Assembly: GCF_020026915.1 (NCBI RefSeq)
Contig: NZ_JAINUY010000004.1
Coordinates: 62,001 to 126,000 of the forward strand
Length of the DNA: 64,000 nt
DNA from: Flavobacterium potami
GTDB lineage: Bacteria > Bacteroidota > Bacteroidia > Flavobacteriales > Flavobacteriaceae
Direction of reading: 5' to 3'
Shown one piece after another: positions 1 through 16,014 of this stretch; the first letter of the stretch is position 1; every line of letters starts with the position of its first letter. Position numbers and translations under genes: made by a program. Under the pieces are notes generated by a model. The model did no database searches. It was not told the DNA's origin and saw nothing but the letters and a program-made list of their open reading frames with translations.

Positions 1-1873
1 GATTCGTTTGTAAAGCGATCGTATACACATTTTTATCAAAACCGGCTTTGATATTAAAATTAGAATCGATAGTTCCATCCGAATTTAAACGAACCAAACC
101 TGCAAAAGGCAATCCGTTAAAAGTTTTAAAATGACCACCAACCAAAATCTTTCCATCTAGTTGCAACACTACACTTTCGATGATATTATCTGCACCTGAA
201 CCAATATTAAAATCCGAATCTTTTGTACCATCAGGAAGTAATCTCACTATTCTGTTTGTATTAACTGTAGATCCGTTGTATTTTGTAAATGCACCAGCAG
301 CAATTATTTTAAAATCAGATTGAACTGCTATTGTATATACCTGACCATTAAACCCTTCTCCACTAACAAAAGAGTCGTCAATGGATCCATTTTGCAAAAT
401 CCGGACAATTCTATTATTTAAAACATCATTATATTTTGTAAAATTACCTCCCACAATTATTTTCTGATCGGTCTGTAGAACAGTCGTTTTGACCAGGTTG
501 TTTGCCCCAGACATTCCTTCATTAAAAGAAGTATCTATGGAACCGTTTTCTAAAAGACAAACAATTTTTGAAACCGCAACGCCATTAAACTTTTTAAAAT
601 TTCCGCCAACAATAATTTTTTTATTTGGAAGTGGTAAAATATTCAAAACAGAACTATCAAATCCGATTCCTGAAGACAAATATTCAATATCATGTTCTCC
701 CTCATTACTAATCTTAACCAATCTCCCTTGATTTTGTCCGTTAAAAACAGAAAAGGAACCTCCGGCGAACCATGAACCTTCATCATCAAATTCGAGCGCT
801 AAAATGGAAGCTGAGGCGGGTCCTGAACCAATATCAAAATCCGGTTTCGCTTTTCCGTCAGGGTTGAGAAAAACCAATCTGGTAACTGGTGTAGTATCAT
901 AATAACCAGTAAAAGAACCTCCAATCATTATTTCATCATTTTGGTTGATTTTAATTACTTCAACTCCTCCTTTGCCAAAACCCGTCCCGGATATAAAACT
1001 TGGATCTATGGTTCCATTTTCATTTAAGCGAATAATCCGATTTGCATCTATAGAATTGTAAGCTGTAAAATCGCCTCCTAAAACAATCTTTCCATCTGAT
1101 TGCATAGCAATTGCATTAACATCATCATTAAAACCATTTCCGGTTGCAAAACTTGTATCGACACTTCCGTTGTTATTTAAACGAATTATTCGATTCGCCG
1201 GCGTCCCATTAAATCCTGTAAAATTTCCGGTAAGAATTATTCTTTGATCATGCAAAATTTTTACATGAGTTACATTTGTGGCTGATCCTGAATTAGTGAG
1301 AAACGAATTATCTAGTGAACCGTTGGAAAATAAACGGGCAATTCGATTTACGGTAACTGAGTTATATTTTGTAAAACTGCCTACAATAATTAGTTTTCCA
1401 TCCGATTGTAAAGCGATATCATAAACAATTCCTGTTGTGGCCCCAATTTTTGTATCAAAACTTGGATCGTAAGTTCCATCTGCATTTAAGCGTATGATTC
1501 TTCCGGCGCTGATTCCGTTGTACATTGTAAAACTTCCTCCAACTATAATTTTACCGTCGTCCTGCAAGATTGAAGAATAAATTTTTCCATTAAATCCAGT
1601 TCCCGTATCGAAACTTTCGTCTATTGAGCCATCGGGATTTAAACGGGTAAGATACGAAACCGGAATTCCGTTTAGACTTAAATAATCTCCGCCGACTATG
1701 AGGTTTCCATTTCTTTGAATTAGTAGTGTTCGTACTGTACTATTAAAACCGTCTCCGTTTTCTCCGTTATCTACAACATTAAACGAATTATCGACTTTGC
1801 CTTGCTGTGCAAAAACTATTGCTTGTAAAGAAAATAAAATCAATATCAACAAATAAGGTAACTTTTTAATCAA
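1..1873 (-). CDS. Delta-60 repeat (beta-propeller-like) secreted protein, C-terminus cut off
   Basis: The reading frame is open from a TTG codon at 1871-1873 to the window edge, about 624 residues. The first residues (IKKLPYLLILILFSLQAIVF, then AQQ) form a signal peptide. After it come about 11 units of roughly 52 residues with the pattern LNPDGSID.SFD..GFNG.VY.I.LQ.DGKIIVGGSFT.YNG, the delta-60 repeat (WD40-like propeller class). No ATG lies in frame between the upstream TAG and the signal peptide, so TTG is the likeliest start; the exact start is inferred. Such proteins in flavobacteria are usually exported through T9SS, but the sorting domain would lie outside the window. The substrate is unknown. 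Confidence 0.8.
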   Translation of the reverse strand, partial: MIKKLPYLLILILFSLQAIVFAQQGKVDNSFNVVDNGENGDGFNSTVRTLLIQRNGNLIVGGDYLSLNGIPVSYLTRLNPDGSIDESFDTGTGFNGKIYSSILQDDGKIIVGGSFTMYNGISAGRIIRLNADGTYDPSFDTKIGATTGIVYDIALQSDGKLIIVGSFTKYNSVTVNRIARLFSNGSLDNSFLTNSGSATNVTHVKILHDQRIILTGNFTGFNGTPANRIIRLNNNGSVDTSFATGNGFNDDVNAIAMQSDGKIVLGGDFTAYNSIDANRIIRLNENGTIDPSFISGTGFGKGGVEVIKINQNDEIMIGGSFTGYYDTTPVTRLVFLNPDGKAKPDFDIGSGPASASILALEFDDEGSWFAGGSFSVFNGQNQGRLVKISNEGEHDIEYLSSGIGFDSSVLNILPLPNKKIIVGGNFKKFNGVAVSKIVCLLENGSIDTSFNEGMSGANNLVKTTVLQTDQKIIVGGNFTKYNDVLNNRIVRILQNGSIDDSFVSGEGFNGQVYTIAVQSDFKIIAAGAFTKYNGSTVNTNRIVRLLPDGTKDSDFNIGSGADNIIESVVLQLDGKILVGGHFKTFNGLPFAGLVRLNSDGTIDSNFNIKAGFDKNVYTIALQTN

Positions 1874-1965
1874 AACAATATAATTAAAGTTAAAAAATGT
1901 AAGAATTAAACTAAAATTATAAAGGATAGTTAAATTCTACAATACCTAGATTTAGGGATATTGCC

Positions 1966-2001
1966 AATAAAAAAAGCCCATTCTACAATAAGAATGGGCT
2001 T
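1966..2001 (-). terminator. Rho-independent terminator of the 1609-residue T9SS protein gene
   Basis: A 10-bp perfect stem AGCCCATTCT / AGAATGGGCT with a 6-base loop (stem 1975-2000) is followed on the minus strand by a T-run. It lies just past the stop codon of the minus-strand gene ending at 2023. Confidence 0.85.
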
Positions 2002-2022
2002 GGGGTTTATGTTTGTTTTTTA

Positions 2023-5000
2023 TTATAAATTAGAGTAAATAACTTTTTTACTAAATGAATACCCATTCTCTAAAGTCACTTTTACCAATAAAACCTGATT
2101 ACTTGAATTTAAATTTGAAATCACTAATTCAGATGAATTGACATTGTTCTTAGTATACATTAATTGTGCTCCGACATTGTAAATGCTCACTTCTTTTATT
2201 TCCTCTTTAGAAGAATTAATTTTTAACACTTTATTTTTTATCGAAACTACAACACTGTTTTCAAGATCTTCAAACTCTTCGTTTCCTAATGTTTTAGAAG
2301 TATAACGCAGTTTGAAACGATCTGTAAAAGTCCCTATTTCTGTTTTAAACTTATAATTTTCAGTACGTAAATTTATTATTTTACTTGTAGTCAAATCTTC
2401 CAAATAAACTTCCTGACTATCGAAAAATCCATCAGCGTCTTCAATTGCAATGGTAAACTCTCCAGCAATTGTTGTTTTGTATCCTAACGGAATGACATCT
2501 GTATTTACAAACGGAAGCGCTCGTCCCTGAATTGTAAACTTTTTAGATTCATTGATCGTGTAGAAATCCACATAACTATTAGAAGACATTGTCGTAGCAT
2601 CATAATCAATATCAATACCGTTTGTTGCCCCCTCAATATATCCAAGTAGCAATTGTTTATAAGCACCCTGCGTATTGGTAAAACTTAGCCAGATACGATT
2701 TCTTTCCAAATCATCTGCATTATTGTTTTTGTAGAATTGTGAGTTGTTACCCGCTCTACGCATTGAATTAGTGAAATGAATAACTCCTCCCGCTGGTGGT
2801 TTTGCCAAGAACCCTTGTCCTGCTGCTATGAATCCGTCAAAGTTTCTTCCATTAAGCATGGCTCCTGCAGGTCCAGAAAGGTTATATGCTGCGTAATCTG
2901 TACTACCATAGTAAAAGTTTGTATCTCCTGGAGCTCCACTTTGTATAGGAAGTGAATTATGAGTCCAGAAATATACTGTCCCTACACCTGTATTTCCGGT
3001 AATAAATGCATTTGCGCTTACTGCCGAAGGGTACGGATTACCGATTAAATTAAATTTTCCTGATACTACAGTTACATCGACGTTTCCGTTATTCGGAACC
3101 CCTACAAACCTACCAATGAAATCTGCAGGCGTCGTAGGATCAAAATATTGTGGAGCCCTGATGCTATAACCTATTCCTTTTTCCATAGGCCATTCTCCGT
3201 TAAGCTTGGAAACCCAACCCAAAGTAGTATCATAAATGTAATATTTATCTAATAAAGTATCTTCCGATAAATCATGCATTGTAAAACCACCAACTTTTGT
3301 AAGCGGATTTGACCAATACGTTAAATCCATACGTCTTACAGTTATCTTTCTTTCGTATGTAATATTTCCTGAATTGGCAACGTCTGTAGTTTGCATTAAA
3401 CTTGATTCACTTTCAAATGTCAATTGTCCATCGGTTGTTACAGCATTGGTAATTACCAAAGTTACTTCCTTAGGAACTGTGACATTTATACCTGGATTGA
3501 TGGTCAAAGCACAACCGTTTACAACTGGTGTACCAGAAGGGAAAGGCGTACCGACGTTTGAATTAATTATAATTCTTTTTGTACTATCTGGATTTCCATT
3601 TGACCATCCTGTCGCCGTCCATGTTGTCGATGAATTATCGCTAATTGTTTGTACAGCAGTAGCTGCCGATACACAAGTATTCGGAGTTTCGACTGTAAAA
3701 GTATAGTTTCCGGCAGCAAGTCCCGTTATTTGACGAGATGCTCCTGTACCTGTTATGGTAGAAGTTGCTGATCCTGGCCCTGTTTGATTTATTGTCCAAC
3801 CTGAAGCCGTTAAATTTCCTAATGTTATTGTTCCTGAACCCACACAATCGATATTAGTTTTGTCTAATATTGTTGGCGTTCCTTGTATTTGTTTTACTGT
3901 AATTACTGCATTTCCTGACATACCAGATGCAATAGCACTACAATTGGCATCACTTAAAGCTGTGATAGCATAGGTTGTAGTCGTTGATGGGCTAACAGTA
4001 GCTGTATAAGGATTTGTACTTGTGGTAAAAGTACCCGATGTTGCTCCGTATGTATAAGATATGTTCCAAGGTGCTGTACCTGTCAATGCTACAGAAACTG
4101 TTGTACTTTCTCCGTTGCATATTGTTCTTGTACCACTTACCGTTGAAGTTGGTCTTTCATTAACTCTTATTAATATTACTGGTGAAATATTTGTACATCC
4201 GCTTGAAGTAACAACTCTTCGGAAATAAGTAGTCTGAGTTAAAATTCCAGGCGAATAATTCTGCACATTACTACTCGGTATAGGTGCAAAACTTCCTGAA
4301 GTTCCCGTTGTACTACTTTCCCAACGATAAGTATAACTTCCCGGACCTGTTGGTGCACTTCCTGAAATAACTCCTGCATCTGTTCCATTACAAACTGGCT
4401 GAGAGTAAGAAGCTGAACCTCTATAACGTTTACCAGTTCCGTAACAAGGATCTCCAAAAGTATCATTATCTGCTCTGAAAGTTATTGTGTTGGAATTACC
4501 CAAAACCCTTCCTTCAGTTACCGATTGACTTGTAAGAGAATGACAAGTAGCTCCTACTGCATAAGAACCACATCCACCACTTGGTAAACCATAGCTAGCA
4601 AAAGTAACGGTATTGAAATAAGTTCCAGCCGGAGCAGTAAAAGCAACCGGATCATTCTCATTTACTTCTACACAAACTGATCCTGATGTACCATTATTAT
4701 ATGTTAGAACATTATTTCCAATACCAACAATGATATTACCACTCGCAGTTGCTACAGTACAAGAGTTACCCGTTGTTGTTATAGAATAACTATACACATC
4801 AATTACTGTTGGAGTACCACTAATTGTTAAAGTATTACCTGAAACGGAATAACTTACACCCGGTGGAAGATTCGACACAGTTGCATTTGTCGCACCACCG
4901 CCTAAAGTAAATGTAATATTACTCATGGCACTGTTTTGACAAACAGTTTGATTTACTGCTGTCGTTGCAGAAATAGTGTGGACTGGATTTACTGTAATGG

Positions 5001-6852
5001 CACCAGACACAGCGCTTGTAGTTGTACAATTATTAGAGTTTGTAACAATCGCATAATAGTATAATGTACCAGAAGTTGCACTAGACGGAGTATAACTGTT
5101 AGTTGTTGCACTTGAGTTAGCATTTTGAACTAATGTTCCTCCAGTATTTGAATTTGTGGTATTGCTATACCATTTGTAATTTGAAATTGTACCACTTCCT
5201 GCTGAAGCCGTTACAGATAATGCCGTCATAGCAGCATTTATACATACCGTCTGACCAGCCGGAGATGGCTGACTTAAAGTAGGACCTGAAACTACTGTTA
5301 CTGCTAAATTTTTAACTGCAGTTGTCCCGCATGCATTTGTTGCTGTTACTCCAATATTCCCATTTTGTCCAGAAGTTCCTGTAGTTACTGTAACAGTATT
5401 TGTACCTTGTCCTGCTGTTATTGACCATCCTGTTGGAACTGTCCAAGTGTAAGATAAAGCATTTGTTGCTGTTACAGAATAAACCTGACCAGCTAAAGAA
5501 GGACACTGCGTTACTGTCCCGCTAGTTGGCGTTGTTTGTAAAACCGGCAAAGCAGGACTTGTTGTAATAGTAACTATATTGCTATCTGCATAGGTACATC
5601 CTCCTTTTACTCCGTTAACATCTGCCATACTACTGGCAAAAGTTACTACTCTTTTATAACGTTTCACAACATTTACAGATGTAGTTGTTGCAGGTGGATC
5701 ATATGTTCTTCCTGTTGCACCTGCTATATTTGTAAAAGCACTTCCGTCTGTTGAAATTTGCCACTGAAAATTTAATTGAGGATTCTGCAAAGATGCATCA
5801 CTAGAGCTATATTGCAAAGAGCCTCCAATTACCGCAGGATCGCCACCTGAACAAAAATTAACTGTAGCCGGTGCTGTAATAGTATTAGAATTGGAATCAA
5901 ATGGAACCATTGAAAAACCAACGACATTACTTCCGGAATTTTCATAATAGTCCAGAATAAAATTATCATTTCCTGTCAAACGGACTAGAACATTACTGTA
6001 TGTAGTTGAACTTTGCTGAACCCACCTGTCAAAAATTTGTGTTCCATTTAAAGATAACCTAATTCCATCATCTCCTGTTATCGAGACAATATAACATCCT
6101 GATTTAGTAGTATTCATTTTATATCTCACAGCAAAACCTTCTGTATACATTTGTGCTCTTTGGACATCATCTGAATATACCGGAAAACAAGCACCATCAC
6201 CACCAAAGTTTTCATTTATAGTTTCTGAGGAAACATTATAATAACCTGCATAATTTGCAAGACTAAAAGGCTCCGGTGTAGAGCCACCTGCATTATAAAT
6301 ATGTCCAACCCAAGTATTTGATGCCGTTTCATTTTGGGTTTCTTGTGTATTTCCTAAAGAATTTAGCGTAATCGTTAATGCTCTATTTCCAGATCCATTT
6401 GTTGAACAAGTACCATTAGTCAACAAAACTTTTATTTGCCCGCTAATTGTTGATGTCCAAGAAAGATTGGTCCCACTACCTCCAGAACTATACCCAGCTG
6501 ATCCAAAATTTACGTTTGTCGCTGCATTAAATAATGTCAAATTTTCATTTCCACTAAATGCATTGCCGACAGCAAAAGTATAATTAAAGCCCTTTATAAC
6601 ATTTAATGTAACATATTGTCCAGATGAAACATTTGATGTGTTTATCGTATTAGAATTATCTATACAAAAGCTATATACCGATCCAACTTGTGTAGCTCCA
6701 CTAGGATATGAACATTGCCCATAATTTTTTGAGAACACAAAAAACAGCATTATGCAAGTAACACTTAAGCTTGGATTTAAAATCTTTCTCGAAGTAAGAT
6801 CAAAGATTCTTAAAAATAAAAAGCGAATAAACAAAAGTAGTTTTCGTTTCAT
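2023..6852 (-). CDS. Giant T9SS-secreted surface protein with PA14 and Ig/PKD-like domains
   Basis: This 1609-residue protein has a long basic/hydrophobic leader (signal region about residues 1-46, ending KNYGQ). A PA14-like domain lies at about 176-319 (NTWVGHIYNAGG to GFSMVPF, with GDDGIRLSLNG). A Ser/Thr/Gly-rich series of Ig- or PKD-like modules covers about 330-1120, with repeated SGTPTVID and VTATNACG type strands. A C-terminal module from about 1168 to the end finishes with a T9SS type A sorting domain (VSIYNVGAQLMYT...VLLVKVTLENG.SFSKKVI). PA14 domains often bind glycans, so an adhesin or polysaccharide-binding role is plausible but inferred. The last 440 or so residues are closely related to those of the protein at 8023-12246. 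An internal Met at residue 35 is an alternative start. Confidence 0.85.
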   Translation of the reverse strand: MKRKLLLFIRFLFLRIFDLTSRKILNPSLSVTCIMLFFVFSKNYGQCSYPSGATQVGSVYSFCIDNSNTINTSNVSSGQYVTLNVIKGFNYTFAVGNAFSGNENLTLFNAATNVNFGSAGYSSGGSGTNLSWTSTISGQIKVLLTNGTCSTNGSGNRALTITLNSLGNTQETQNETASNTWVGHIYNAGGSTPEPFSLANYAGYYNVSSETINENFGGDGACFPVYSDDVQRAQMYTEGFAVRYKMNTTKSGCYIVSITGDDGIRLSLNGTQIFDRWVQQSSTTYSNVLVRLTGNDNFILDYYENSGSNVVGFSMVPFDSNSNTITAPATVNFCSGGDPAVIGGSLQYSSSDASLQNPQLNFQWQISTDGSAFTNIAGATGRTYDPPATTTSVNVVKRYKRVVTFASSMADVNGVKGGCTYADSNIVTITTSPALPVLQTTPTSGTVTQCPSLAGQVYSVTATNALSYTWTVPTGWSITAGQGTNTVTVTTGTSGQNGNIGVTATNACGTTAVKNLAVTVVSGPTLSQPSPAGQTVCINAAMTALSVTASAGSGTISNYKWYSNTTNSNTGGTLVQNANSSATTNSYTPSSATSGTLYYYAIVTNSNNCTTTSAVSGAITVNPVHTISATTAVNQTVCQNSAMSNITFTLGGGATNATVSNLPPGVSYSVSGNTLTISGTPTVIDVYSYSITTTGNSCTVATASGNIIVGIGNNVLTYNNGTSGSVCVEVNENDPVAFTAPAGTYFNTVTFASYGLPSGGCGSYAVGATCHSLTSQSVTEGRVLGNSNTITFRADNDTFGDPCYGTGKRYRGSASYSQPVCNGTDAGVISGSAPTGPGSYTYRWESSTTGTSGSFAPIPSSNVQNYSPGILTQTTYFRRVVTSSGCTNISPVILIRVNERPTSTVSGTRTICNGESTTVSVALTGTAPWNISYTYGATSGTFTTSTNPYTATVSPSTTTTYAITALSDANCSAIASGMSGNAVITVKQIQGTPTILDKTNIDCVGSGTITLGNLTASGWTINQTGPGSATSTITGTGASRQITGLAAGNYTFTVETPNTCVSAATAVQTISDNSSTTWTATGWSNGNPDSTKRIIINSNVGTPFPSGTPVVNGCALTINPGINVTVPKEVTLVITNAVTTDGQLTFESESSLMQTTDVANSGNITYERKITVRRMDLTYWSNPLTKVGGFTMHDLSEDTLLDKYYIYDTTLGWVSKLNGEWPMEKGIGYSIRAPQYFDPTTPADFIGRFVGVPNNGNVDVTVVSGKFNLIGNPYPSAVSANAFITGNTGVGTVYFWTHNSLPIQSGAPGDTNFYYGSTDYAAYNLSGPAGAMLNGRNFDGFIAAGQGFLAKPPAGGVIHFTNSMRRAGNNSQFYKNNNADDLERNRIWLSFTNTQGAYKQLLLGYIEGATNGIDIDYDATTMSSNSYVDFYTINESKKFTIQGRALPFVNTDVIPLGYKTTIAGEFTIAIEDADGFFDSQEVYLEDLTTSKIINLRTENYKFKTEIGTFTDRFKLRYTSKTLGNEEFEDLENSVVVSIKNKVLKINSSKEEIKEVSIYNVGAQLMYTKNNVNSSELVISNLNSSNQVLLVKVTLENGYSFSKKVIYSNL
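3122..3216 (-). repeat. High-identity patch, copy 1 of an inverted repeat between two T9SS genes
   Basis: Read on the minus strand this 95-bp stretch (from TGGGTTTCCAAGC to CGCCTGCAGA) matches 11059-11153 on the plus strand with one mismatch by eye (ATA versus GTA codon). The surrounding coding sequence is clearly more diverged, including at synonymous sites. Confidence 0.85.
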
Positions 6853-7144
6853 ATCAATGTGGTATTTATTTTAAATTTGTTTTTGGTTGCTAAAAAGCAA
6901 AAAGGGCATTTTCTTTTGAAAAAGAGTGTGTTTTTTTATCTTTTTTCAGTCAAATTTAAAAGTTAAAATCCTGTTTATTAGCGGGATTACAAATCAGTTA
7001 AATTCTCGTACAAAAATATTTAAATTCGGCACATACACAACATTTTACAATCATTCTTTTCCAAAAATCTTAACAAATTTTAGAAGTTTTTTGTAAGTAT
7101 TTATCCGTTTTTAGATTTAATCGTTAAAATGCAGGAAAAACCCG

Positions 7145-7615
7145 ATGAAGAGCACATTTACACTCAAAGAAGCTTTACAAAAACTGGAACACTTTTGTGC
7201 CTATCAGGAACGTTGTCATGAAGAAGTTGTTTCGAAACTTTATAGTTTAAAAATGACTTCTGACGAAATTGACACTATTATCGTACAGCTTATTGAAGGT
7301 AATTTTTTAAATGAAACTCGGTTTGCTTGTAGTTTTGCACGTGGCAAACATCGTATTAAACATTGGGGAAAAATCAGAATCACCAACGAACTTAAAGCAA
7401 GACAAATTTCATCGACAAATATCACTTTGGCTTTAAAGGAAATTTCTTCGGAAGAATATTTCGAAACTTTCGAAAATCTGGCAGAAAGATGCTGGAATAG
7501 TTTATCAGAATCTAATGCATTAAAAAAACGCAAAAAATTTTGTGACTATATGCTTCGAAGAGGTTATGAAAGCAATTTGGTTTACGAAAAAGTAAAAGAA
7601 TTAGAATCGAACTAA
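7145..7615 (+). CDS. recX: Regulatory protein RecX
   Basis: This 156-residue, mostly helical protein matches RecX, which binds RecA filaments and limits recombination. Visible signatures are the N-terminal ALQKLEHFCAYQERCHEEV (compare AL..L..R..S..EL in the family), the middle F.NE.RFA.SFARGK.RIKHWG segment and the C-terminal KRKKFCDYMLRRGYES...VYEKV repeat. Flavobacterial RecX proteins have about this length. The ATG at 7129 is out of frame, so 7145 is the start. The gene sits alone between the divergent giant T9SS genes, and no recA is in the window. Confidence 0.88.
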   Translation: MKSTFTLKEALQKLEHFCAYQERCHEEVVSKLYSLKMTSDEIDTIIVQLIEGNFLNETRFACSFARGKHRIKHWGKIRITNELKARQISSTNITLALKEISSEEYFETFENLAERCWNSLSESNALKKRKKFCDYMLRRGYESNLVYEKVKELESN

Positions 7616-8022
7616 TTCTACTTCGATCAAAAAAAGACAATTCTATAATTATTTAAAAATCAAAATACTTCCTTTTAAAATTGTCTTAAATTCCATACAA
7701 AAACACCTTACAACACTTGGTTATAAATTAATCCGATTTTGACGATTTTATAGCCAAACTAGCGTTTTTGAGTCCAAAAATTGAAAAATGTATCAAAAAA
7801 AAGCCCGAATATTGCGATTATTCTTATATATTTTTTCTGGTTTTTATAAGAATATCCGCAAATTGTTAATTTTTTTTATGCATTTCGTCGAGTATTTTAA
7901 CAATTCATCGGATATATCTAGGTATTGAAAACCCTCCTTATTTCTAGCTCGTAGATGTATTTATCTTTGCGACGGCAAAAAAGTCCTATGCCAGCATAAC
8001 AAACTGATAGAAAACATTTAAC
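7616..8022. other. Intergenic region with a hairpin and a promoter upstream of the plus-strand T9SS gene
   Basis: No gene is seen in this 407-base AT-rich stretch. It holds an inverted repeat TATTCTTATA (7819-7828) / TATAAGAATA (7845-7854) flanked by GCG and CGC, which could end recX transcription or act in the leader region. It also holds TCTAGGTATTG at 7917-7927, shared with the upstream region of the delta-60 gene, and a -7 box at 7962-7969. Confidence 0.5.
7962..7969 (+). promoter_or_regulatory. Bacteroidota -7 promoter box (TATCTTTG) for the 1407-residue T9SS gene
   Basis: TATCTTTG followed by C matches TAnnTTTG. It lies 53 bases before the ATG at 8023. No good -33 TTG is visible at the usual spacing. 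Confidence 0.5.
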
Positions 8023-11000
8023 ATGAAAAAAACTTTACTTTTATTTTTATTGTTGCCTTTTTTGGGGTTTGCTCAAAATGCGAATTTAGTAAAATGGGAT
8101 AATCCTGCCGACAACGATCCTATCGTTCTTTCCCCTTACACAAACTCCGTTGAAGCTGAGCCGGTAAGCGCAGGGCCTGATTTAACTTTAGCTCCGCTAG
8201 ATTATCAAGGATTTAGAGGAAGTCCTTGGACAACATCTTTTTCTATTGATGAAAGAAAATATTTTCAATTTGTTGTTGGCTCTAAACCTGGCTATAAAAT
8301 TAAACTGAATACATTCAATTTTACTTACAGAGCAGAGAACATTAACAGCTTACAAAGATATCAAGTTCGTTATTCGAAAGATGGCTTCGCAACAAGTACG
8401 GTACTAATCGATGAAGCAACACAAAGTGGCAAAGTGAATAAATCTTTAGATTTATCAAAAATAACTTTGTACAATGGCGAAAAAATAACAATTCGCATCT
8501 ATGGATATAAAATAAAAAGTCGCTCAGACTTAGGGTCACCTCTTTTTTTAATTAACAAAAACACTGTAGAAGCAGGAAACACAACACCGACAATTAACGG
8601 AGCTGTTTCGGTTTACAATCCAGCAGATTTAAATGCAAATGACGATCTTATCACAACACAAGAAAAAACAGCCATTTCTTTTAATCCGTTAACAAATGAT
8701 ACAAACACTACTGGTGCAACTATCACCAATACACAACCTCCATCAACAGAAGGAACAGTTTCTAGAAATGGCAATATTTTCGTATTTACACCTACAGCGA
8801 CATTTACAGGAACAACTTCATTTACTTACACTCTGACGATTGGGGCAAAAAGCGCCACAGCAACTGTAGTAATATATGTTAATGCACTTACTCCTAAATT
8901 AATTATCTGGAATGGTGCAGATCAAACGCCAAAAGCAGTAGTGACTGATCAAAATATAACAGGAAATGACTTAACCGTTTCTCCACCAACTGCAAATCAA
9001 GCCAATTTGGAACTTGGTACATATAGTAACTATTTTAACATCAATGGCCTTCAAAATAATGGCTCAACCGCAGAAACTTTAAATCGCTACATTCAATTTA
9101 GTGTGACAGTTAAGGAAAAATACAAACTAACACTTAAACAATTAAAATTTGCTTATTTCTCTCAAAGTGATGATCAGGGAGCTTCAATGTTTCAAGTTCG
9201 TTACTCTAAAGATCCCAATTTTGCAGACAATGGTACTGTTTTTCTAGGTCCTACAACAGCTTTTAGAGGAACTGATACAGACGTTACTTTAAATTTTCCA
9301 AGTGGCACAACAATATCGAGCACTAAAAACGAGACTTTATATATAAGAATTTATCCTTATGCTGTTAGTAATTTATATAATGGATACTTTAAACTAAGAA
9401 ACGACACTGGTGGAGAAGTTGGACCAACCATTTCTGGTATTGTGGAGCCTGCAAATTTGATTACTGCCAATGCCGATTTTATACAAACTAATCCAAATAC
9501 AGCCGTTGTAGTTCCTATTTTATCAAATGATGAAAATTATACTCCCTTAGCATCAATAACAGCAACTCAACCAAGTTCTGGCGGAACTGTACAGGTTAAT
9601 GGTACAAATAACATAACATTTACGCCAACAGCTGGTTTTACAGGAACTTCTAAATTTGAGTATACAATTTTTAATGGATTGAATTACTCAACAGCTACTG
9701 TAACAGTAAATGTTAGTTGTCAAATATCAGGTAATCAAGTAGCTTTTGGTAATGGATCATGGATTGGATATGTTTACAGTTTCACCGGAAATACGGCTCC
9801 AAATCCAGCATACAATACTTTACCAACAGGTACAGGTGTAAATTATTTAGGAACTGTTACTGAAACAACCCAAAACTTTGACAGAAATGTTGAAGCTGGT
9901 GCCGTAAACGGTGCTACGAGAAATTTTTGTGACCCAGCACCAACCGACAGGTTTTTTGTACGATACAAAATGACTGCAAATATTGCCGAAGCAGGACAAT
10001 ACAATTTCATGCTTGGAAGTGATGATGGAGTAAGACTATATGTTGATGGAGTTAAAGTTTTGGAACGTTGGAACCAACATAGTTATACGGTAGATTCTGT
10101 TCTTAGAAACATCACAACAACTGGAACACACGAATTTATTCTTGAATATTTTGAACTTGACGGTTCTTCTAGAGTTCAGATTTCTTTTGGCTTAGTAAAA
10201 GGAGACCAAACTCTTCCTTATGGTGACAAAGTTTGGAATGTTTATGGTTTTGTTAAAAACGACCTTAATTTAAGCAATGTAGTGTACGCTGGAAATTTTG
10301 TTGATCCTAGCCTTAATGTAAAATCTACAACATATTGGCCAGTTGACAAATCACCTGCAGCTGCAACAGCTTGGCAAGGTGCTCCAATGCCAAATGATAA
10401 TTTTACTGTTTCGTACAGACGTCAAGGTTTTCCTTGTGGAACGTACAGAATAGAATTAGCAAATTCTGATGATGCAACTCAAATATATTTAGATAACAAT
10501 TTGATATTTACTCAAGCTGGATATACAAATACACCTGCATATATTAATACAGGAGCAACATACATTTTAGGAAGTAACTCTAAAATTGAAGTTCGTTTAA
10601 GAGAAGACGGAGGAAATGCAAACGTAGCAGTCAATTTCGTAAGAGTAATGACACCTTACACAGGAAGTGAGACGGTTAACTCAAACAGTTCTATCGAAAT
10701 TAGTTCAACCGTAAATTTAGGTTCAGACATTAGAGTTTGTTCTTGTACTGTAAAAGCAGGGGCTACGTTAAATATTCCTGCCAACAGAACACTTACTGTT
10801 GACGAAGACATAAATGTAATCAATACAGGAAAATTTGTAATACAAAGTGGCGGATCACTTCTTCAAACTTCTACAAGCACAACAATGTTTACAGGAAATA
10901 ACGCAAATGCGCTTGAAGTTCAAAGAAAAATAACTGCAAGACGTATGGATTTGACGTATTGGTCTAATCCGATTACAAAAGCTGGTGGTTTTACAATGCA

Positions 11001-12246
11001 CGATTTATCTCCAGACACTTTATTGGATAAATATTATATTTATGATACTTCTTTAGGATGGGTTTCCAAGCTTAACGGAGAATGGCCTATGGAAAAAGGA
11101 GTAGGTTATAGCATCAGGGCTCCACAATATTTTGATCCTACGACGCCTGCAGAATTTACAGGTACCTTTAAAGGAGGTGTTCCTAATAATGGTGATATCA
11201 ATGTAGATGTAGTACAAGGAAAATTCAACTTAATAGGAAATCCTTATCCATCAGCAATTTATGCAGATGACTTAATTAGAGGAAATACTGGTTTGGGTAC
11301 ATTGTATTTCTGGACACATAATTCAGTTCCTACGCAAAGTAAACCAGGAGATACTAATTTCTATTACGGAAATGCGGATTATGCAGCTTACAATTTATCT
11401 GGAAATGTTGGTGGTGCAAAACTTAACGGAAAATATTTCGAAGGATATATCGCTGTAGGACAGGGCTTTTTGGCAAAACCATCTTCAACAAAGGTGAATT
11501 TCAATAATACAATGCGTAGAGCTGGTAATAACTCACAATTTTATAAAAGCAATACTACAGGTGAGCTTGAAAAAAATCGTGTATGGTTAAATATGAGCAA
11601 CGATGAAGGTGCTTACAAACAGCTTTTGGTTGGATACATCGAAGGTGCAACAAACAGCATCGATATTGACTATGATGCCACAACTATGGGATCGAACAAT
11701 TATGTTGATTTTTATAGTATTAATGAATCTAAGAAACTGGCAATCCAAGGACGTGCGCTTCCTTTTGATGATACAGATGTAATTCCTTTAGGATACAAAG
11801 CAACGACTGCTGGAGAACTAACAATTTCAATTGACCATGCAGATGGATTTTTTGACAAACAAGCTGTTTATTTAGAAGATGCAATAACAGGTAAAACAAT
11901 AGATTTACGTACAGAAAATTATAAATTTACAACAGAAGTCGGAACTTTTGCAGATCGTTTCAAACTGCGTTATACTTCTAAAACATTAGGAACAGGAGAT
12001 TTTGAAACGGCAGATAATACTGTTTTTGTTTCTGTAAAATCAAAAGTTGTAAAAATTAACGTTACTAAAGAAAACATAAAAGACGTACAGATTTACAACA
12101 TCAGCGGACAATCTGTTTATAATAAGACTAAAATTGATTCAAATGAATTACAGATTACAAATCTTCCTTCAGGTTATCAGGTTTTATTAGTCAAAGTCAT
12201 TTTAGAAAACGGCTCTCAGGTCACTAAGAAAATTATTTTCAATTAA
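8023..12246 (+). CDS. Giant T9SS-secreted surface protein with two PA14-like domains
   Basis: This 1407-residue protein has a clean signal peptide (MKKTLLLFLLLPFLGFAQ). Two related beta modules lie at about 23-185 and 293-450 (LVKWDN..., LIIWNG..., each with YQVRYSKD or FQVRYSKD and IRIYGYK or IRIYPYA). Each is followed by a cadherin/Ig-like segment (FTPTATFTGTTSFTYTLT; FTPTAGFTGTSKFEYTIF). PA14-like domains lie at about 578-725 (GSWIGYVYSF, GSDDGVRLYVDGVKVLERW) and, more diverged, about 735-880. From about 969 to the end is the shared C-terminal module (RRMDLTYWSNP...) ending in a T9SS type A sorting domain (VQIYNISGQSVYN...VTKKIIFN). A cell-surface glycan-binding or adhesin role is inferred. 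The gene points away from its paralogue at 2023-6852. Confidence 0.87.
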   Translation: MKKTLLLFLLLPFLGFAQNANLVKWDNPADNDPIVLSPYTNSVEAEPVSAGPDLTLAPLDYQGFRGSPWTTSFSIDERKYFQFVVGSKPGYKIKLNTFNFTYRAENINSLQRYQVRYSKDGFATSTVLIDEATQSGKVNKSLDLSKITLYNGEKITIRIYGYKIKSRSDLGSPLFLINKNTVEAGNTTPTINGAVSVYNPADLNANDDLITTQEKTAISFNPLTNDTNTTGATITNTQPPSTEGTVSRNGNIFVFTPTATFTGTTSFTYTLTIGAKSATATVVIYVNALTPKLIIWNGADQTPKAVVTDQNITGNDLTVSPPTANQANLELGTYSNYFNINGLQNNGSTAETLNRYIQFSVTVKEKYKLTLKQLKFAYFSQSDDQGASMFQVRYSKDPNFADNGTVFLGPTTAFRGTDTDVTLNFPSGTTISSTKNETLYIRIYPYAVSNLYNGYFKLRNDTGGEVGPTISGIVEPANLITANADFIQTNPNTAVVVPILSNDENYTPLASITATQPSSGGTVQVNGTNNITFTPTAGFTGTSKFEYTIFNGLNYSTATVTVNVSCQISGNQVAFGNGSWIGYVYSFTGNTAPNPAYNTLPTGTGVNYLGTVTETTQNFDRNVEAGAVNGATRNFCDPAPTDRFFVRYKMTANIAEAGQYNFMLGSDDGVRLYVDGVKVLERWNQHSYTVDSVLRNITTTGTHEFILEYFELDGSSRVQISFGLVKGDQTLPYGDKVWNVYGFVKNDLNLSNVVYAGNFVDPSLNVKSTTYWPVDKSPAAATAWQGAPMPNDNFTVSYRRQGFPCGTYRIELANSDDATQIYLDNNLIFTQAGYTNTPAYINTGATYILGSNSKIEVRLREDGGNANVAVNFVRVMTPYTGSETVNSNSSIEISSTVNLGSDIRVCSCTVKAGATLNIPANRTLTVDEDINVINTGKFVIQSGGSLLQTSTSTTMFTGNNANALEVQRKITARRMDLTYWSNPITKAGGFTMHDLSPDTLLDKYYIYDTSLGWVSKLNGEWPMEKGVGYSIRAPQYFDPTTPAEFTGTFKGGVPNNGDINVDVVQGKFNLIGNPYPSAIYADDLIRGNTGLGTLYFWTHNSVPTQSKPGDTNFYYGNADYAAYNLSGNVGGAKLNGKYFEGYIAVGQGFLAKPSSTKVNFNNTMRRAGNNSQFYKSNTTGELEKNRVWLNMSNDEGAYKQLLVGYIEGATNSIDIDYDATTMGSNNYVDFYSINESKKLAIQGRALPFDDTDVIPLGYKATTAGELTISIDHADGFFDKQAVYLEDAITGKTIDLRTENYKFTTEVGTFADRFKLRYTSKTLGTGDFETADNTVFVSVKSKVVKINVTKENIKDVQIYNISGQSVYNKTKIDSNELQITNLPSGYQVLLVKVILENGSQVTKKIIFN
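11059..11153 (+). repeat. High-identity patch, copy 2 of an inverted repeat between two T9SS genes
   Basis: It is the partner of 3122-3216 in inverted orientation, with 94 of 95 positions equal by eye. It lies within the shared C-terminal module, at about residues 1013-1044 of this protein. Confidence 0.85.
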
Positions 12247-12255
12247 TATAAAAAT

Positions 12256-12286
12256 AAGAAACCCATCGATTAACGATGGGTTTCTT
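12256..12286. terminator. Bidirectional terminator between convergent genes
   Basis: A perfect 13-bp stem AAGAAACCCATCG / CGATGGGTTTCTT with a 5-base loop lies between the stop codons of the plus-strand T9SS gene and the minus-strand membrane protein gene. T-rich sequence follows on both strands. Confidence 0.85.
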
Positions 12287-12290
12287 GTTT

Positions 12291-12908
12291 TTATTCTTCT
12301 TTTAATTCGTCTATTACCTTTTTAATTTCCTTAGCATATTTTCCATAAAAACACTTTACCGACCATTCGAGAGAAAATCCCATAAATAAAATCGCAAACA
12401 CTACAGTGACAAAAACACTAATTAATTGTCCATTGCTAAAGTCCGTTATTTGAAATCTACCAGGTTTCATAGAAAATTTTTCATATAAAAAACCAAGTAA
12501 AAACAACACTAAAAATGGTGTTAATGCAAATCCAAAAGTTTTATATAATTCCATATTAAGCCTTACATCAAAGTACGTTTCATACAAACTGTCCTTAGTT
12601 TTCAATGTAATATTATTTAGCCTTTTATAAAAGAAATAAAGTTTGGTCAAGTAGTAAACACAAATGGCAAAAAAGATACTGAAAAGCAAGTAAAATGGTG
12701 CAATCCATTTTTGCGAGAAACCATATAAGTAAGGTGTAACACCAACAACTACAACAGCTATAGTCTGCGTTATAAGATCATTTCTCAGATTTCTCTTGAT
12801 CTTGCCTAAAGGCGTATTTGCCGAATTAATTTTTTCTAAATTATTTGGAAGAACTACATTTTCGGTCTTTTCGTTATTCCAAGCGTTTTGTATATCGTTA
12901 AAATCCAT
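12291..12908 (-). CDS. Four-helix membrane protein, putative anti-sigma factor
   Basis: This 205-residue protein has a soluble N-terminus (MDFNDIQNAWNNEK, about 45 residues) and four hydrophobic segments at about 45-64, 69-87, 124-142 and 161-179, with a charged C-terminal tail (KEIKKVIDELKEE). Its start overlaps the end of the ECF sigma gene by 11 bases, so the two are translationally coupled. A membrane protein directly after an ECF sigma gene is usually the cognate anti-sigma factor; that role is inferred from position, and I see no ZAS zinc motif. It could equally be an uncharacterised accessory membrane protein. Confidence 0.75.
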   Translation of the reverse strand: MDFNDIQNAWNNEKTENVVLPNNLEKINSANTPLGKIKRNLRNDLITQTIAVVVVGVTPYLYGFSQKWIAPFYLLFSIFFAICVYYLTKLYFFYKRLNNITLKTKDSLYETYFDVRLNMELYKTFGFALTPFLVLFLLGFLYEKFSMKPGRFQITDFSNGQLISVFVTVVFAILFMGFSLEWSVKCFYGKYAKEIKKVIDELKEE

Positions 12909-13401
12909 ATCCTTGATTTTTAATTATCTCTTTTAATTTTTCTTTTGCTCGATTCAGCTTAACTCTCGCATTTCCTTCTGAAATTCCCAGATTCTCTCCT
13001 ATTTCTTTATGAGAAAAGCCTTCCAGCTGATAAAAAATAATCGCTTTATCTATTTTTTCAAGTTTTTGTACCGCTTTATAAAAATGATCCAGCTGACTTT
13101 CTTTTATATGCGAATCGCTTTCATCTTCTTTGATGTTTTCTGAAGCGATTTCATATTTGTCTATTTTTTTCTTCTCCTTTCTAAGGAAAACGATCGCCGT
13201 ATTTACAGCCACTCGATACATCCAGGTTGAAAATTGACTTTCATTTCGAAATGTATCATACGATTTCCAAAGCTGACAGACGATTTCCTGAAATAAATCT
13301 TGCTGATCATCATGATTATCCATGTACATCTTCGAGACTTTGTACAGAATTCCCTTGTGACTTTCGATCCGATTTAAAAACTCTTGTTCTTTTTCTTTCA
13401 A
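12898..13401 (-). CDS. ECF-type RNA polymerase sigma factor
   Basis: This 167-residue protein has the two-domain ECF layout. Region 2 (about 25-75) includes DDQQDLFQEIVCQLWKSYDTF and FSTWMYRVAVNTAI. Region 4 (about 115-160) includes IIFYQLEGFSHKEIGENLGI and NARVKLNRAKEKLKE, a helix-turn-helix for -35 recognition. A charged linker with EDESDSH separates them. It starts 7 bases after the TraB/GumN gene and overlaps the membrane protein downstream, so all three are probably one transcript. The target regulon is not shown by the sequence. Confidence 0.92.
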   Translation of the reverse strand: MKEKEQEFLNRIESHKGILYKVSKMYMDNHDDQQDLFQEIVCQLWKSYDTFRNESQFSTWMYRVAVNTAIVFLRKEKKKIDKYEIASENIKEDESDSHIKESQLDHFYKAVQKLEKIDKAIIFYQLEGFSHKEIGENLGISEGNARVKLNRAKEKLKEIIKNQGYGF

Positions 13402-13408
13402 AATAGTT

Positions 13409-14272
13409 TTAATTCATTACTGGTTTTACAATATATCCTGCCTTTCTTAATAAATTAATCACTCCAAATTCTCCTGCCAAATGCCCCGCTCCAACTGCAA
13501 AAAATACACTTTCTTTTTTCATCATCTGAGGCATATCTATAATCCAGTTCAAATTTCTTTGATCTAGAATCATTTTTTTTGTTTTCTCGCTTGTAAATCT
13601 TTTATCTGTTACCGTATTATATATCTCTTCAATATTTTCGCTTTTATATGTAGCCACTAATTTAGTAGTTTCGTTTTGATTTGATTCTTCTAACATCGTA
13701 ATCATTTCATCATTTGTATAAGCATTTCCAAGAATATCCAACTGCGATTTCACCGTTTCAAGTCCGCCAATCTGCATGTTTTTCTTTTTAGCCATTTCGA
13801 TAAATTCCATCTCATAAAGCTTCATATCTGTACAGCCAAAAGTTTTCATAGAAATCAGACTCATTACCGTCATTAAACTAAAACCATCCACTTGCTGCAC
13901 CGTAATTCCTGCTGTTCTCTTTAAGATCTCATCCAATTCAGACAACTGCTTCAAACTTAATGTTTTACTTAAAGGTTCTTTTCCCATCGCCATTTTTTGC
14001 ATATTTGACATTTCTGTCGGATCAGCAAAGTTGATTTCTAAAATCAATTTATTTGATGCGTTGAATGCTTTTTTTGTTTTTTCAGAAAGAAAATAATCTG
14101 GTCCGCAAATCATATGAACCGTTCCATATAAATAGGAAGGTTTATCTAACCCATTTCCTGAAACTTCCCATAAAAGACTGTTTTCAAGTTTTACAGATTT
14201 TGCTTGTGCTTTGGCAGAAGAACTAAAAAGAATTACGATTACTGCGATTATAGATTGAATAAAATTTTTCAT
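13409..14272 (-). CDS. TraB/GumN family protein, exported
   Basis: This 287-residue protein has a signal peptide (about 1-24, ending AKAQAK). Family hallmarks are the N-terminal LLWEVSGNGLDKPSYLYGTVHM segment with the GTVH motif at about residue 50, conserved acidic LILEINFADP, and the C-terminal FFAVGAGHLAGEFGVINLLR followed by GYIVKPV. TraB/GumN (Tiki-like) proteins are thought to be metal-dependent proteases; the GxxH motifs are kept here, so activity is plausible but unproven. It is the gene just before the ECF sigma factor, which suggests an envelope role inside the same regulon. Confidence 0.85.
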   Translation of the reverse strand: MKNFIQSIIAVIVILFSSSAKAQAKSVKLENSLLWEVSGNGLDKPSYLYGTVHMICGPDYFLSEKTKKAFNASNKLILEINFADPTEMSNMQKMAMGKEPLSKTLSLKQLSELDEILKRTAGITVQQVDGFSLMTVMSLISMKTFGCTDMKLYEMEFIEMAKKKNMQIGGLETVKSQLDILGNAYTNDEMITMLEESNQNETTKLVATYKSENIEEIYNTVTDKRFTSEKTKKMILDQRNLNWIIDMPQMMKKESVFFAVGAGHLAGEFGVINLLRKAGYIVKPVMN

Positions 14273-14275
14273 TTT

Positions 14276-14341
14276 GTTGATTGATTTAAGTTGATAATTG
14301 ATTAATGATTTTATAATTGATTGATTTTTTTGATGATTGAA
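14276..14341. repeat. Short-period ATTGATT-type repeats in the spacer before the TraB/GumN gene
   Basis: The spacer between the small membrane protein gene and the TraB/GumN gene is made mostly of TTGATT, TTGATAATTGATTAATGAT and TTGATTGATTT variants, with a period of about 7-8 bases. It contains no ORF. Confidence 0.6.
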
Positions 14342-14354
14342 ACTCTCTAAAATT

Positions 14355-14543
14355 TTATTTGCTGTATTTATTTCGTTGCCACGAAGAAACAGTTCCCAGG
14401 ATTAAAGCTCCCATCATAACTAAAAAAACAACACTAATAATTTTGAATAAAATTTTGCAAAGCAAAGCGAATAAAAATCCTGCTAATGCAGCTAAGACAC
14501 ATTTGTAAATAGTATGTTTCGAAAAAGATGATTGTGTTTTCAT
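14355..14543 (-). CDS. Small two-helix membrane protein
   Basis: This 62-residue ORF encodes a short polar N-terminus (MKTQSSFSKHTIYK), two closely packed hydrophobic segments at about 15-30 and 33-52 (VLAALAGFLFALLCKILFK, VVFLVMMGALILGTV) and a basic tail (SSWQRNKYSK). It is upstream of and co-directional with gumN, the sigma factor and the membrane protein, with an 82-base spacer. The composition is that of a real membrane peptide and the ORF lies in no other gene. I do not recognise a family; a role with the ECF unit is inferred only from position. Confidence 0.55.
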   Translation of the reverse strand: MKTQSSFSKHTIYKCVLAALAGFLFALLCKILFKIISVVFLVMMGALILGTVSSWQRNKYSK

Positions 14544-14562
14544 AATTGTTTTGGTTTATTTG

Positions 14563-14603
14563 ATTACGACTCGTAAGTGACCAAACATTCAAAACGTTAC
14601 AAA
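14563..14603 (-). promoter_or_regulatory. Candidate ECF-type promoter and operator upstream of the small membrane protein gene
   Basis: Read on the minus strand, a TTTGTAACGTTTTG segment (14590-14603) has the GTAAC core of many ECF -35 elements. It is followed by a perfect 6-1-6 palindrome TTACGACTCGTAA (14564-14576) 20 bases before the ATG at 14543. Autoregulation by the ECF factor of the same unit is an inference; the -35/-10 spacing is not textbook. Confidence 0.4.
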
Positions 14604-14811
14604 AAAAATTAAACTTTTTTTAAAAAGTGAGGAAATTCAATCGTTGAGTAAAGAAAAAAAATAATCAGCCACCGATAAAACTGATTAAACTGGTTATCAC
14701 AGATTTGTCAGGTTTTGTTTTCTGTCATTAGTATAAATAAGCCTCTTAAACTCCTGAGTTTCTCCAAAATTCAACAATAAAACCTACCCGTATTTGAGTA
14801 TAGTCAGTGAG

Positions 14812-15966
14812 CTAAAACAGGTAATTTCTTACCAATAACAACACCTGATTAATTTCTTCTTCCGAGTTATAACTGTGAAGACAAAAACGCAAACGTTCCT
14901 GACCTTCTGGAACTTTTGGCGAAAAAATGGCCTGAACATCAAATCCTTTATCTTGAAGTTGCTCAGCCAACTGTTTTACATTTTTATTTCCCGGAACAAT
15001 AGCCGAATGTATAGCCGATTTACTATGAACAAACATAGGTTTCAACCCCAATAAATTTTTCTGCTGATTGAAAAATACAATATTCTGTCGAAGTTTTTCG
15101 ATACTTTCCTTTTCAATTTCCAACTGCTGGTAGGCTGTCAAAATTGTTGCGATTGCCTGAGGAGGTAAAGCTGTGGTATAAATAAAACTATTCGCAAAAT
15201 TGATAAGATATTCTTTGAGTCCAATACTTCCTAAAACTGCGGCGCCCAAGCAACCTAAACCTTTTCCCAAAGTCACAATTCGGGCAAAAACACGATTATG
15301 TAATTTTAAATACTGCAAAAGTCCCTCTCCTTTTTCTCCAAAAACACCCAATGAGTGCGCTTCATCAACAATCAAATAACAATTATACTTTTCAGAAAGT
15401 TGTACTAGTTCTTCCAAATTCGGACAATCCCCATCCATAGAAAAAACAGTTTCAGTGACAATATAAATTGTTGTATTTGGAAATTTAGCAATTAGACGTT
15501 CTAAATCTTCAAAATCGTTATGAATAAATGAATGTGATTTTGCCTTAGACAATGAAATCCCATCTTTTATTGAAACATGACATAATTCATCGTACAAAAC
15601 GACATCATTTTCTTGCGCTACAGCACTAAAAAAACCAATATTGGCATCATAACCCGAATTAAAAATTAACGCCGCTTCTGCTTCATGGAATTCAGCGATA
15701 AAACTTTCTGCAATTGGATAGACCGAATGATTTCCAGTACTTAATCTTGATCCAGTTGAACCATTTTGAAAAATTTCATTTTCCAGCAAATAAGCATGAG
15801 TGTGCTTAAAAATGACTTCTGATTTAGAAAACCCCAGATAATCATTAGAAGAAAAATCTACGAGATTATTAAAGGCAGGCAGTTTTTTAAACAAATCACT
15901 TTGTCTATGATTTTCTATTTTCTGATTAAGATGTTTCGGTAATTCCATAAAAACAAAGTTAGCCAT
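14812..15966 (-). CDS. bioF: 8-amino-7-oxononanoate synthase-like PLP enzyme
   Basis: This 384-residue protein belongs to the alpha-oxoamine synthase family (fold type I PLP enzymes), which condense an amino acid with an acyl-CoA or acyl-ACP. Seen are FSSNDYLGFS near residue 40, GSTGSRLSTGN at about 75, IVDEAHSLGVFG at about 200 and the PLP-lysine segment TLGKGLGCLGA at about 230. BioF uses L-alanine and pimeloyl thioester in biotin synthesis. No other biotin gene is nearby, and flavobacteria also have sulfonolipid (capnine-type) enzymes in this family, so substrate is not certain. Met at residue 7 is an alternative start. It follows an NAD(P)-binding protein gene, with a terminator between them. 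Confidence 0.75.
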   Translation of the reverse strand: MANFVFMELPKHLNQKIENHRQSDLFKKLPAFNNLVDFSSNDYLGFSKSEVIFKHTHAYLLENEIFQNGSTGSRLSTGNHSVYPIAESFIAEFHEAEAALIFNSGYDANIGFFSAVAQENDVVLYDELCHVSIKDGISLSKAKSHSFIHNDFEDLERLIAKFPNTTIYIVTETVFSMDGDCPNLEELVQLSEKYNCYLIVDEAHSLGVFGEKGEGLLQYLKLHNRVFARIVTLGKGLGCLGAAVLGSIGLKEYLINFANSFIYTTALPPQAIATILTAYQQLEIEKESIEKLRQNIVFFNQQKNLLGLKPMFVHSKSAIHSAIVPGNKNVKQLAEQLQDKGFDVQAIFSPKVPEGQERLRFCLHSYNSEEEINQVLLLVRNYLF

Positions 15967-15980
15967 TTGAAAGTTAGCAT

Positions 15981-16014
15981 AAAAAAACAGCGGATCGTAT
16001 CAACCCGCTGTTTT
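15981..16014 (-). terminator. Terminator after the NAD(P)-binding protein gene
   Basis: A 10-bp stem AAAACAGCGG / CCGCTGTTTT (15984-15993 and 16005-16014) is followed on the minus strand by T-rich sequence. It separates the gene ending at 16025 from the BioF-like gene. Confidence 0.75.

Follow-up and report, generated by a model that had tools for sequence, protein, structure and literature searches.

Mosaic 3' modules and repeated inversion at a recX locus between two RemA-type adhesin genes of Flavobacterium

Two large genes of Flavobacterium potami, A and B, diverge around recX, so that their shared 3' modules form an inverted repeat, with ~7.6 kb between the two copies of a nearly identical patch. 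Such an arrangement raises the question of whether the paralogues recombine and, if so, whether the outcome is gene conversion, inversion of the segment between them or switching of surface proteins within a strain. The locus lies in a stretch of 64,000 nucleotides (the window; bases 62001-126000 of contig C59, NZ_JAINUY010000004.1) of a 5.69-Mb genome assembled into 113 contigs (GCF_020026915.1). It was compared with the genomes and loci of relatives, labelled by G and L numbers, respectively (G000 is the window genome); the close relatives found via recX are mostly named Flavobacterium, and both genome collections hold one genome per species. The reading that we prefer, with a probability of about 0.85, is homologous recombination between the inverted paralogues, in which conversion would be commoner than inversion. 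The features on which the argument turns are:

2023..6852, minus strand: gene A, RemA orthologue, 1609 aa, with PKD-like, PA14 and SUEL-lectin-like stretches and the shared 3' module
2026..2265, minus strand: type IX secretion system (T9SS) C-terminal domain (tail) of A, which resembles same-position orthologues more than B
2296..3345, minus strand: module head of A (~350 residues), rich in beta structure according to the predicted model; conversion with B is clear in its first ~250 nt
3101..3353, minus strand: 253-nt block in A, 90% identical to B, including the patch
3122..3216, minus strand: 95-bp near-identical patch in A, 1 mismatch
7145..7615, plus strand: recX (open reading frame and Pfam RecX domains), between the two inverted modules
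8023..12246, plus strand: gene B, 1407 aa, with Big_9/cadherin-like and PA14 domains and the shared 3' module
10922..11174, plus strand: 253-nt block in B, 90% identical to A
10924..11973, plus strand: module head of B
11059..11153, plus strand: 95-bp patch in B
12004..12243, plus strand: T9SS C-terminal domain (tail) of B

Conversion in the shared module

An earlier note on this DNA described two T9SS genes in inverted orientation with a shared 3' module of ~440 codons, and the open reading frames (ORFs) and the T9SS C-terminal signals (NCBIfam matches at the ends of both A and B) agree with that description. Over 436 codons, the two modules share 72% protein and 77% DNA identity. The note's count of one mismatch in the 95 bases of the patch (3122-3216 versus 11059-11153) proved exact. 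Its contrast between the patch and more diverged flanks held in so far as identity along the module is uneven (the remaining 60-nt windows are mostly 63-80% identical), but not for the immediate neighbourhood, as the DNA directly 5' of the patch is still 83% identical over 150 nt. The patch is the best part of a tract of ~250 bp, corresponding to a larger inverted repeat (3101-3353/10922-11174; 253 nt, 90% identity), and a second high stretch (90-92%) is located near 2300-2390/11890-11985. Neither the best 32-codon window (2 mismatches) nor the best 84-codon window (26 mismatches) was reproduced in 20,000 codon shuffles (p about 5e-5 each), and a GENECONV-like run test of eight modules from four species gave p = 5e-5 on all 672 polymorphic columns.

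The comparison with three sister species (G015, G210 and G346) bears on the origin of this similarity. In the first ~250 nt of the module, the A-B distance within the window genome is 0.04-0.16, while that between orthologues is 0.30-0.39; in the last ~250 nt, i.e. in the tail, the relation is reversed, with orthologues (0.17-0.26) closer than A and B (0.26-0.32). The reversal falls at ~residues 346-380 of the module query (P0001), an interval containing a low-confidence linker (364-373) of the predicted model, just before the ~76-residue C-terminal domain (CTD) of PDB 8gl6 and 8gl8. The patch might instead have been kept by selection on the DNA or protein sequence with no recombination at all, and the protein sequence of the module is indeed well conserved, with 53 columns invariant among 29 sequences. 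However, constraint cannot explain a region that differs by 4-16% between A and B of one genome where sister-species orthologues differ by 30-39%, whereas conversion can; selection, hardly credible on these numbers, was rejected as the cause of the patch.

Trees of the head (first 300 residues) and of the tail (last 90 residues) were then compared. In the head trees, A and B of the same genome cluster in G000, G015, G042 and G083, and A of G049 clusters with B2, while in the tail trees the left and right genes of the window's clade form separate groups. The gene conversion that the note had suggested is thus borne out, as far as window distances and mosaic trees can tell, and the comparison of orthologues that it had proposed found, in the window's clade, heads mostly grouping by genome and tails grouping by position.

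Four module genes stand in a row on the contig (C, D60, A and B), of which C and D60 are on A's strand, upstream of A. In nearest-module counts over the modules of 84 genomes, 27 of 60 A-side and 29 of 72 B-side modules had their nearest head within their own genome, as did 4 of 18 C modules and none of 29 D60 modules; the corresponding counts for tails were 8/60, 10/72, 1/18 and 0/29. Among the 56 genomes with both an A-side and a B-side module, the best A-B pair was closer than any other species in 22 for heads and in 4 for tails. A general rule by which the head would track the species tree less than the tail was not seen: Spearman correlation with species identity was 0.52 for heads and 0.39 for tails over 58 species, and 0.52 for both in the window's clade (26 species).

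Heads that often cluster by genome would also fit a history in which B's module is a recent duplicate of A's in each lineage. Against this stand the tails, whose orthology between species follows position in the window's clade and on whose account recent duplication was rejected there, and the B-type N-termini, which recur in 24 genomes; we regard such duplication as highly improbable. Given the positional orthology of the tails and these recurring N-termini, both genes are probably old, with only the head overwritten. By the distances and trees taken together, the module is a mosaic that probably evolves in concert by gene conversion.

Partial copies of the module were observed as well. Contig C26 of the window genome holds a partial module copy plus a weak match. 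A small separate ORF on this contig (G000:C26:1403526-1404221) has the second half of the module only, and half-module matches of ~280-300 aa are also present in several relatives.

Inversion of the A-recX-B segment

In the window, the segment is bordered by the following features:

1..1873, minus strand: 5' part of D60 (delta-60/DUF5122 gene), whose module end lies outside the window; left flank of the putatively invertible segment
12291..15966, minus strand: right-flank anchor, four ORFs labelled duf, sig, traB and bioF by eye

These flanks are conserved. The left anchors are ribF and jmj (labels by eye), followed by C and D60, the latter carrying delta-60/DUF5122 repeats and then the same module (C59:60019-63873); the right anchor is a block with or without a ketoacyl-synthase-like gene (label by eye). 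The direction of recX in the window, towards the right block, is also that found in most genomes; in others the whole A-recX-B(-B2) piece is reversed between the same flanks. The 80 named loci, which were found via recX similarity regardless of layout (loci sharing recX with a G genome were dropped), comprise 8 inverted, 53 oriented as in the window and 19 without an orientation call. With further genomes added, the 99 distinct genomes, a set enriched by eight chosen since listings suggested rearrangement, comprise 61 oriented as in the window, 14 inverted, 21 without a call and 3 otherwise rearranged. The inverted form is present in the single-contig genomes G136, G244 and G312 and on a 6.49-Mb contig of G416; single-contig G450 is also inverted, as judged from left-flank genes alone (the right block was not found there). 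Inverted named species are F. panici, F. defluvii, F. poyangense, F. reichenbachii and F. hercynium.

Dropping taxa with at most 300 aligned residues left 82 of the 99 rows for a tree, 74 of them with an orientation state. These states need 8 changes, or 7 without the doubtful Root186 (G438), the latter figure being an estimate from a quick tree in which some forks are weak. Holding 14 inverted rows as one clade, a constraint named after the states were seen, was rejected (p-AU 6e-65). More than one origin of the inversion is firmly indicated by these comparisons. The note had envisaged inversion of the recX segment with the N-terminal parts exchanging sorting ends, and the flanks, the tree and the N-termini argue for exactly such events, repeated between species.

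Other layouts also occur. In G249, G466 and G296 (and, per listings, G476 and G495) recX lies beyond the right block, at a distance of ~27-34 kb. In F. oncorhynchi, sp. YO12, F. frigidimaris and F. azizsancarii (L147, L154, L175 and L180, respectively) no A/B module lies beside recX, whose immediate neighbours are the left flank genes on one side and the synthase-like gene on the other.

Where the crossovers fall can be read from both ends of the genes. In each of the 24 genomes with a B-type N-terminus, 5 of which are inverted, this N-terminus is on the downstream side of recX. The DNA after the stop codon follows position: on the right side it leads to the synthase-like gene in all 7 inverted genomes, and on the left side it is the D60 leader in 5 of the 6 inverted genomes listed (both by eye; G319 was not listed). 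Because the N-termini travel with recX while the DNA past the stop mostly stays with the flank, the junction lies most likely in the shared module, or in the short terminator (also shared in G079), and is resolved to this interval, not to a base. The 11 inverted genomes compared have more similar best A-B module pairs than the 44 other genomes (p = 0.0003, one-sided, kinship ignored), and the inverted modules of G136, G244 and G312 are 96-97% alike in DNA.

Inversion by another route, i.e. through a site-specific recombinase, a mobile element or an assembly error rather than through the modules, would suit the broken or scrambled look of several assemblies at this locus and breakpoints that are located to an interval rather than a base. 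Nevertheless, it is very unlikely: the inverted form is present in single-contig G136, G244, G312 and G450, besides A, recX and B, the window's segment contains just one ORF of at least 100 aa, an antisense one, and the post-stop DNA places the junction in the homologous 3' part. No recombinase gene, as expected in or beside the segment for a site-specific inversion system of the shufflon or Mpi type, was recognised by eye among the 9 ORFs of at least 100 aa in 1-16000, where family scans covered A, B, recX and D60.

Several observations weigh against homologous recombination with frequent conversion and have to be set beside the evidence above. For the window pair, the run test on the 171 fully silent columns alone is not significant (p = 0.12), so the run tests alone are not decisive. 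In the rest of the head, A and B (distance 0.15-0.35) are only slightly closer to each other than orthologues are (0.21-0.41), or equally distant. In 34 of the 56 genomes, the A head has a counterpart in another species that is at least as close as its own B head, and a large subclade (G006, G057, G063, G077 and G109) shows no recent conversion, its A and B genes forming old separate groups. Direct pairs of B and B2 are homogenised too in some genomes (92% in G121 and 89% in G183, aa), so inverted order is not required, and on the left side of G312 other DNA takes the place of the usual D60 leader. Judged by these counts, conversion is common but far from universal.

On the preferred account, A and B would be RemA-family adhesins secreted by the T9SS, each with its own N-terminal part and a common 3' module consisting of a beta-rich head (~350 residues) and a secretion CTD (~80 residues). 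The inverted modules would recombine, presumably by RecA-type homologous recombination, often with the head of one gene overwritten by that of the other, as the mosaic trees show, and less often by a crossover that inverts A-recX-B and joins each N-terminal part to the other's end, as the comparison between species shows. In the window, the youngest conversion tract would be the 95-253 bp patch, and no inversion was seen in its clade; recX would be only a passenger.

Switching within strains and assembly of the locus

The note had further proposed a surface-variation device. If the segment were phase-variable, with frequent flips in culture, cells would differ in the pairing of N-terminal parts and ends. 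The strong likeness of the inverted modules in G136, G244 and G312 is in keeping with this, as is the occurrence of both orientations in the genus. In 15 of the 80 named loci recX is on a short contig cut at both ends, and in 5 of these 15 contigs the two ends match closely in inverted orientation, with 90-97% identity over 110-585 bp or, in F. circumlabens, 95 identical bases. Moreover, Root186, a close relative of inverted species, reads as non-inverted. Orientation, however, follows the tree: 29 of the 30 species in the window's clade are alike and one gave no call, while the inverted clade of 11 has 8 inverted members, 2 without a call and 1, Root186, not inverted, whose module is broken into different frames, suggesting misassembly. 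A and B also each keep their own start in either orientation, and this anatomy, with both 5' ends retained, argues against an expression switch by inversion. The device itself is so far not supported, given the constant orientation in the window's clade and a longest exact A-B tract of only 52 bp in the window; we consider frequent switching unlikely.

Two candidate lines of evidence were rejected. Root186 was set aside as a recent flip, its module being split into frames as in L132; in both loci (L160, Root186, and L132, Root935) the outermost modules lie in pieces in different frames, probably through misassembly of near-identical copies. Contig breaks were not accepted as proof of identical inverted ends, as just 5 of the 15 doubly cut contigs match (L149, L150, L153, L159 and L177). 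L170 has an 88% match, not at the right end, and the remaining doubly cut recX contigs end elsewhere. No joinable overlaps between recX contigs and flank contigs were found in any of 6 genomes, and in G375 and G472 the contigs stop inside the modules, the middle being missing from the contigs examined. Since assemblies often break at this locus, short reads may not settle orientation where the modules are most alike.

RemA-type adhesins and known systems

The module matches F. johnsoniae RemA and RemZ in PDB. The A-side gene of G136 matches RemA (8gl6_D) over 1-1436 of 1436 residues, with complete identity in the part of the alignment shown, and the 1114 residues of RemZ (8gl8_D) are likewise matched in full by its C gene; because of these full-length matches, G136 is to be identified as F. 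johnsoniae or all but identical to it. Gene A of the window shares 56% identity with RemA over A 57-433 and 43% over 812-1606. Domain matches outside the module are:

4429..4626, minus strand: SUEL (galactose/rhamnose) lectin-like stretch in A (E 3e-6, below the Pfam cut-off)
5941..6108, minus strand: PA14 domain match in A, residues 249-304 (family scan)
9898..10200, plus strand: PA14 domain match in B, residues 626-726 (family scan)

The SUEL lectin match in A scores 27.8 bits against a Pfam cut-off of 31.4, and RemA itself scores 35.9. A model of the A tail superimposed on 8gl6_D over 76 columns (TM 0.94 by target, 47% identity) is predicted to fold like the RemA CTD; for the head, a fold search gave no hit among solved structures at E 0.001 apart from the CTD. 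Its position, its domains and its module make A the orthologue of F. johnsoniae RemA (Fjoh_0808), with a predicted role in gliding; RemZ is Fjoh_0803.

According to the parts of the source available, the RemZ and RemA CTDs were shown bound in SprA-PorV and are counted as type A (PMC10994853), and exchange of CTDs between RemA and SprB changes the protein's final location (PMC12618676, likewise in part). Exchange between A and B by inversion should be nearly neutral, because their CTDs are of one kind and both genes keep their own starts.

One case was followed in which the head may have come from outside. In F. tyrosinilyticum (L130), with modules at 4869-6185 and 13785-15092, the A and B heads are identical over a tract of 473 bp, while similarity is down to 76% and 69% in the last two 55-codon blocks. 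The L130 heads are mostly 90-96% alike in DNA to those of F. tagetis (L142; first 55-codon block 0.81-0.99, depending on the gene), versus 53-82% for head blocks compared with G077, its closest species in the sample; L130 and G077 nevertheless agree at 95% (A) and 92% (B) over the last 55 codons. This looks like import of a head from an F. tagetis-like donor, followed by its spread to both genes. The locus might, more speculatively, be a device for renewing a fast-changing adhesin domain, in which a foreign head is copied by conversion onto the divergent RemA-type adhesin genes on either side of recX and the CTD is spared; L130 fits this because its heads are L142-like and its last 55 codons G077-like, and as a general account it is tentative and rather doubtful. 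If true, the surface adhesins of a cell would change together, and crossovers would re-pair N-terminal parts with ends.

The available parts of the RemA literature (PMC10994853, PMC12618676 and PMC5445135) describe secretion and movement, not recombination of the locus. In the literature searched, which was covered in part and did not include the original 2012 RemA paper, no report was found of inversion or conversion at the RemA/recX locus. Within that coverage, the RemA locus as a recombining one, the differing histories of its head and CTD and the recurrent inversion around recX appear to be new.

These results would provide an account of how RemA-type gliding adhesins evolve, in which the head is often rewritten in several paralogues together, the secretion CTD mostly descends without such exchange and the segment has inverted several times. 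RemA orthologues would be mosaics, and short-read assemblies of the locus can be wrong. F. johnsoniae, a laboratory model of gliding and the T9SS, seems to have an inverted pair with 96% identity (G136), and existing strains would therefore allow a check for switching.

Surface-layer genes of Campylobacter fetus (sap) and Lactobacillus acidophilus (slp) undergo RecA-dependent inversion. As at the present locus, these are inverted paralogous surface-protein genes with a shared and a variable part. In sap and slp, however, the genes have their 5' ends in common and inversion determines which of them is expressed, whereas A and B share their 3' parts and each retains its own start.

Recombination between inverted surface-protein genes is already known, also in this genus: the available parts of a study of F. 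psychrophilum describe a 1.9-Mb inversion between inverted repeats that hold an adhesin gene, a PorP/SprF-family gene and an outer-membrane protein gene (PMC5808330). The likeness lies in an inversion between inverted copies of T9SS-related surface genes, there between isolates (PMC5808330). The differences are 10-kb repeats, a megabase segment and, in those parts of the source, no reference to recX, and orientation varies between isolates in F. psychrophilum and between species at the locus described here.

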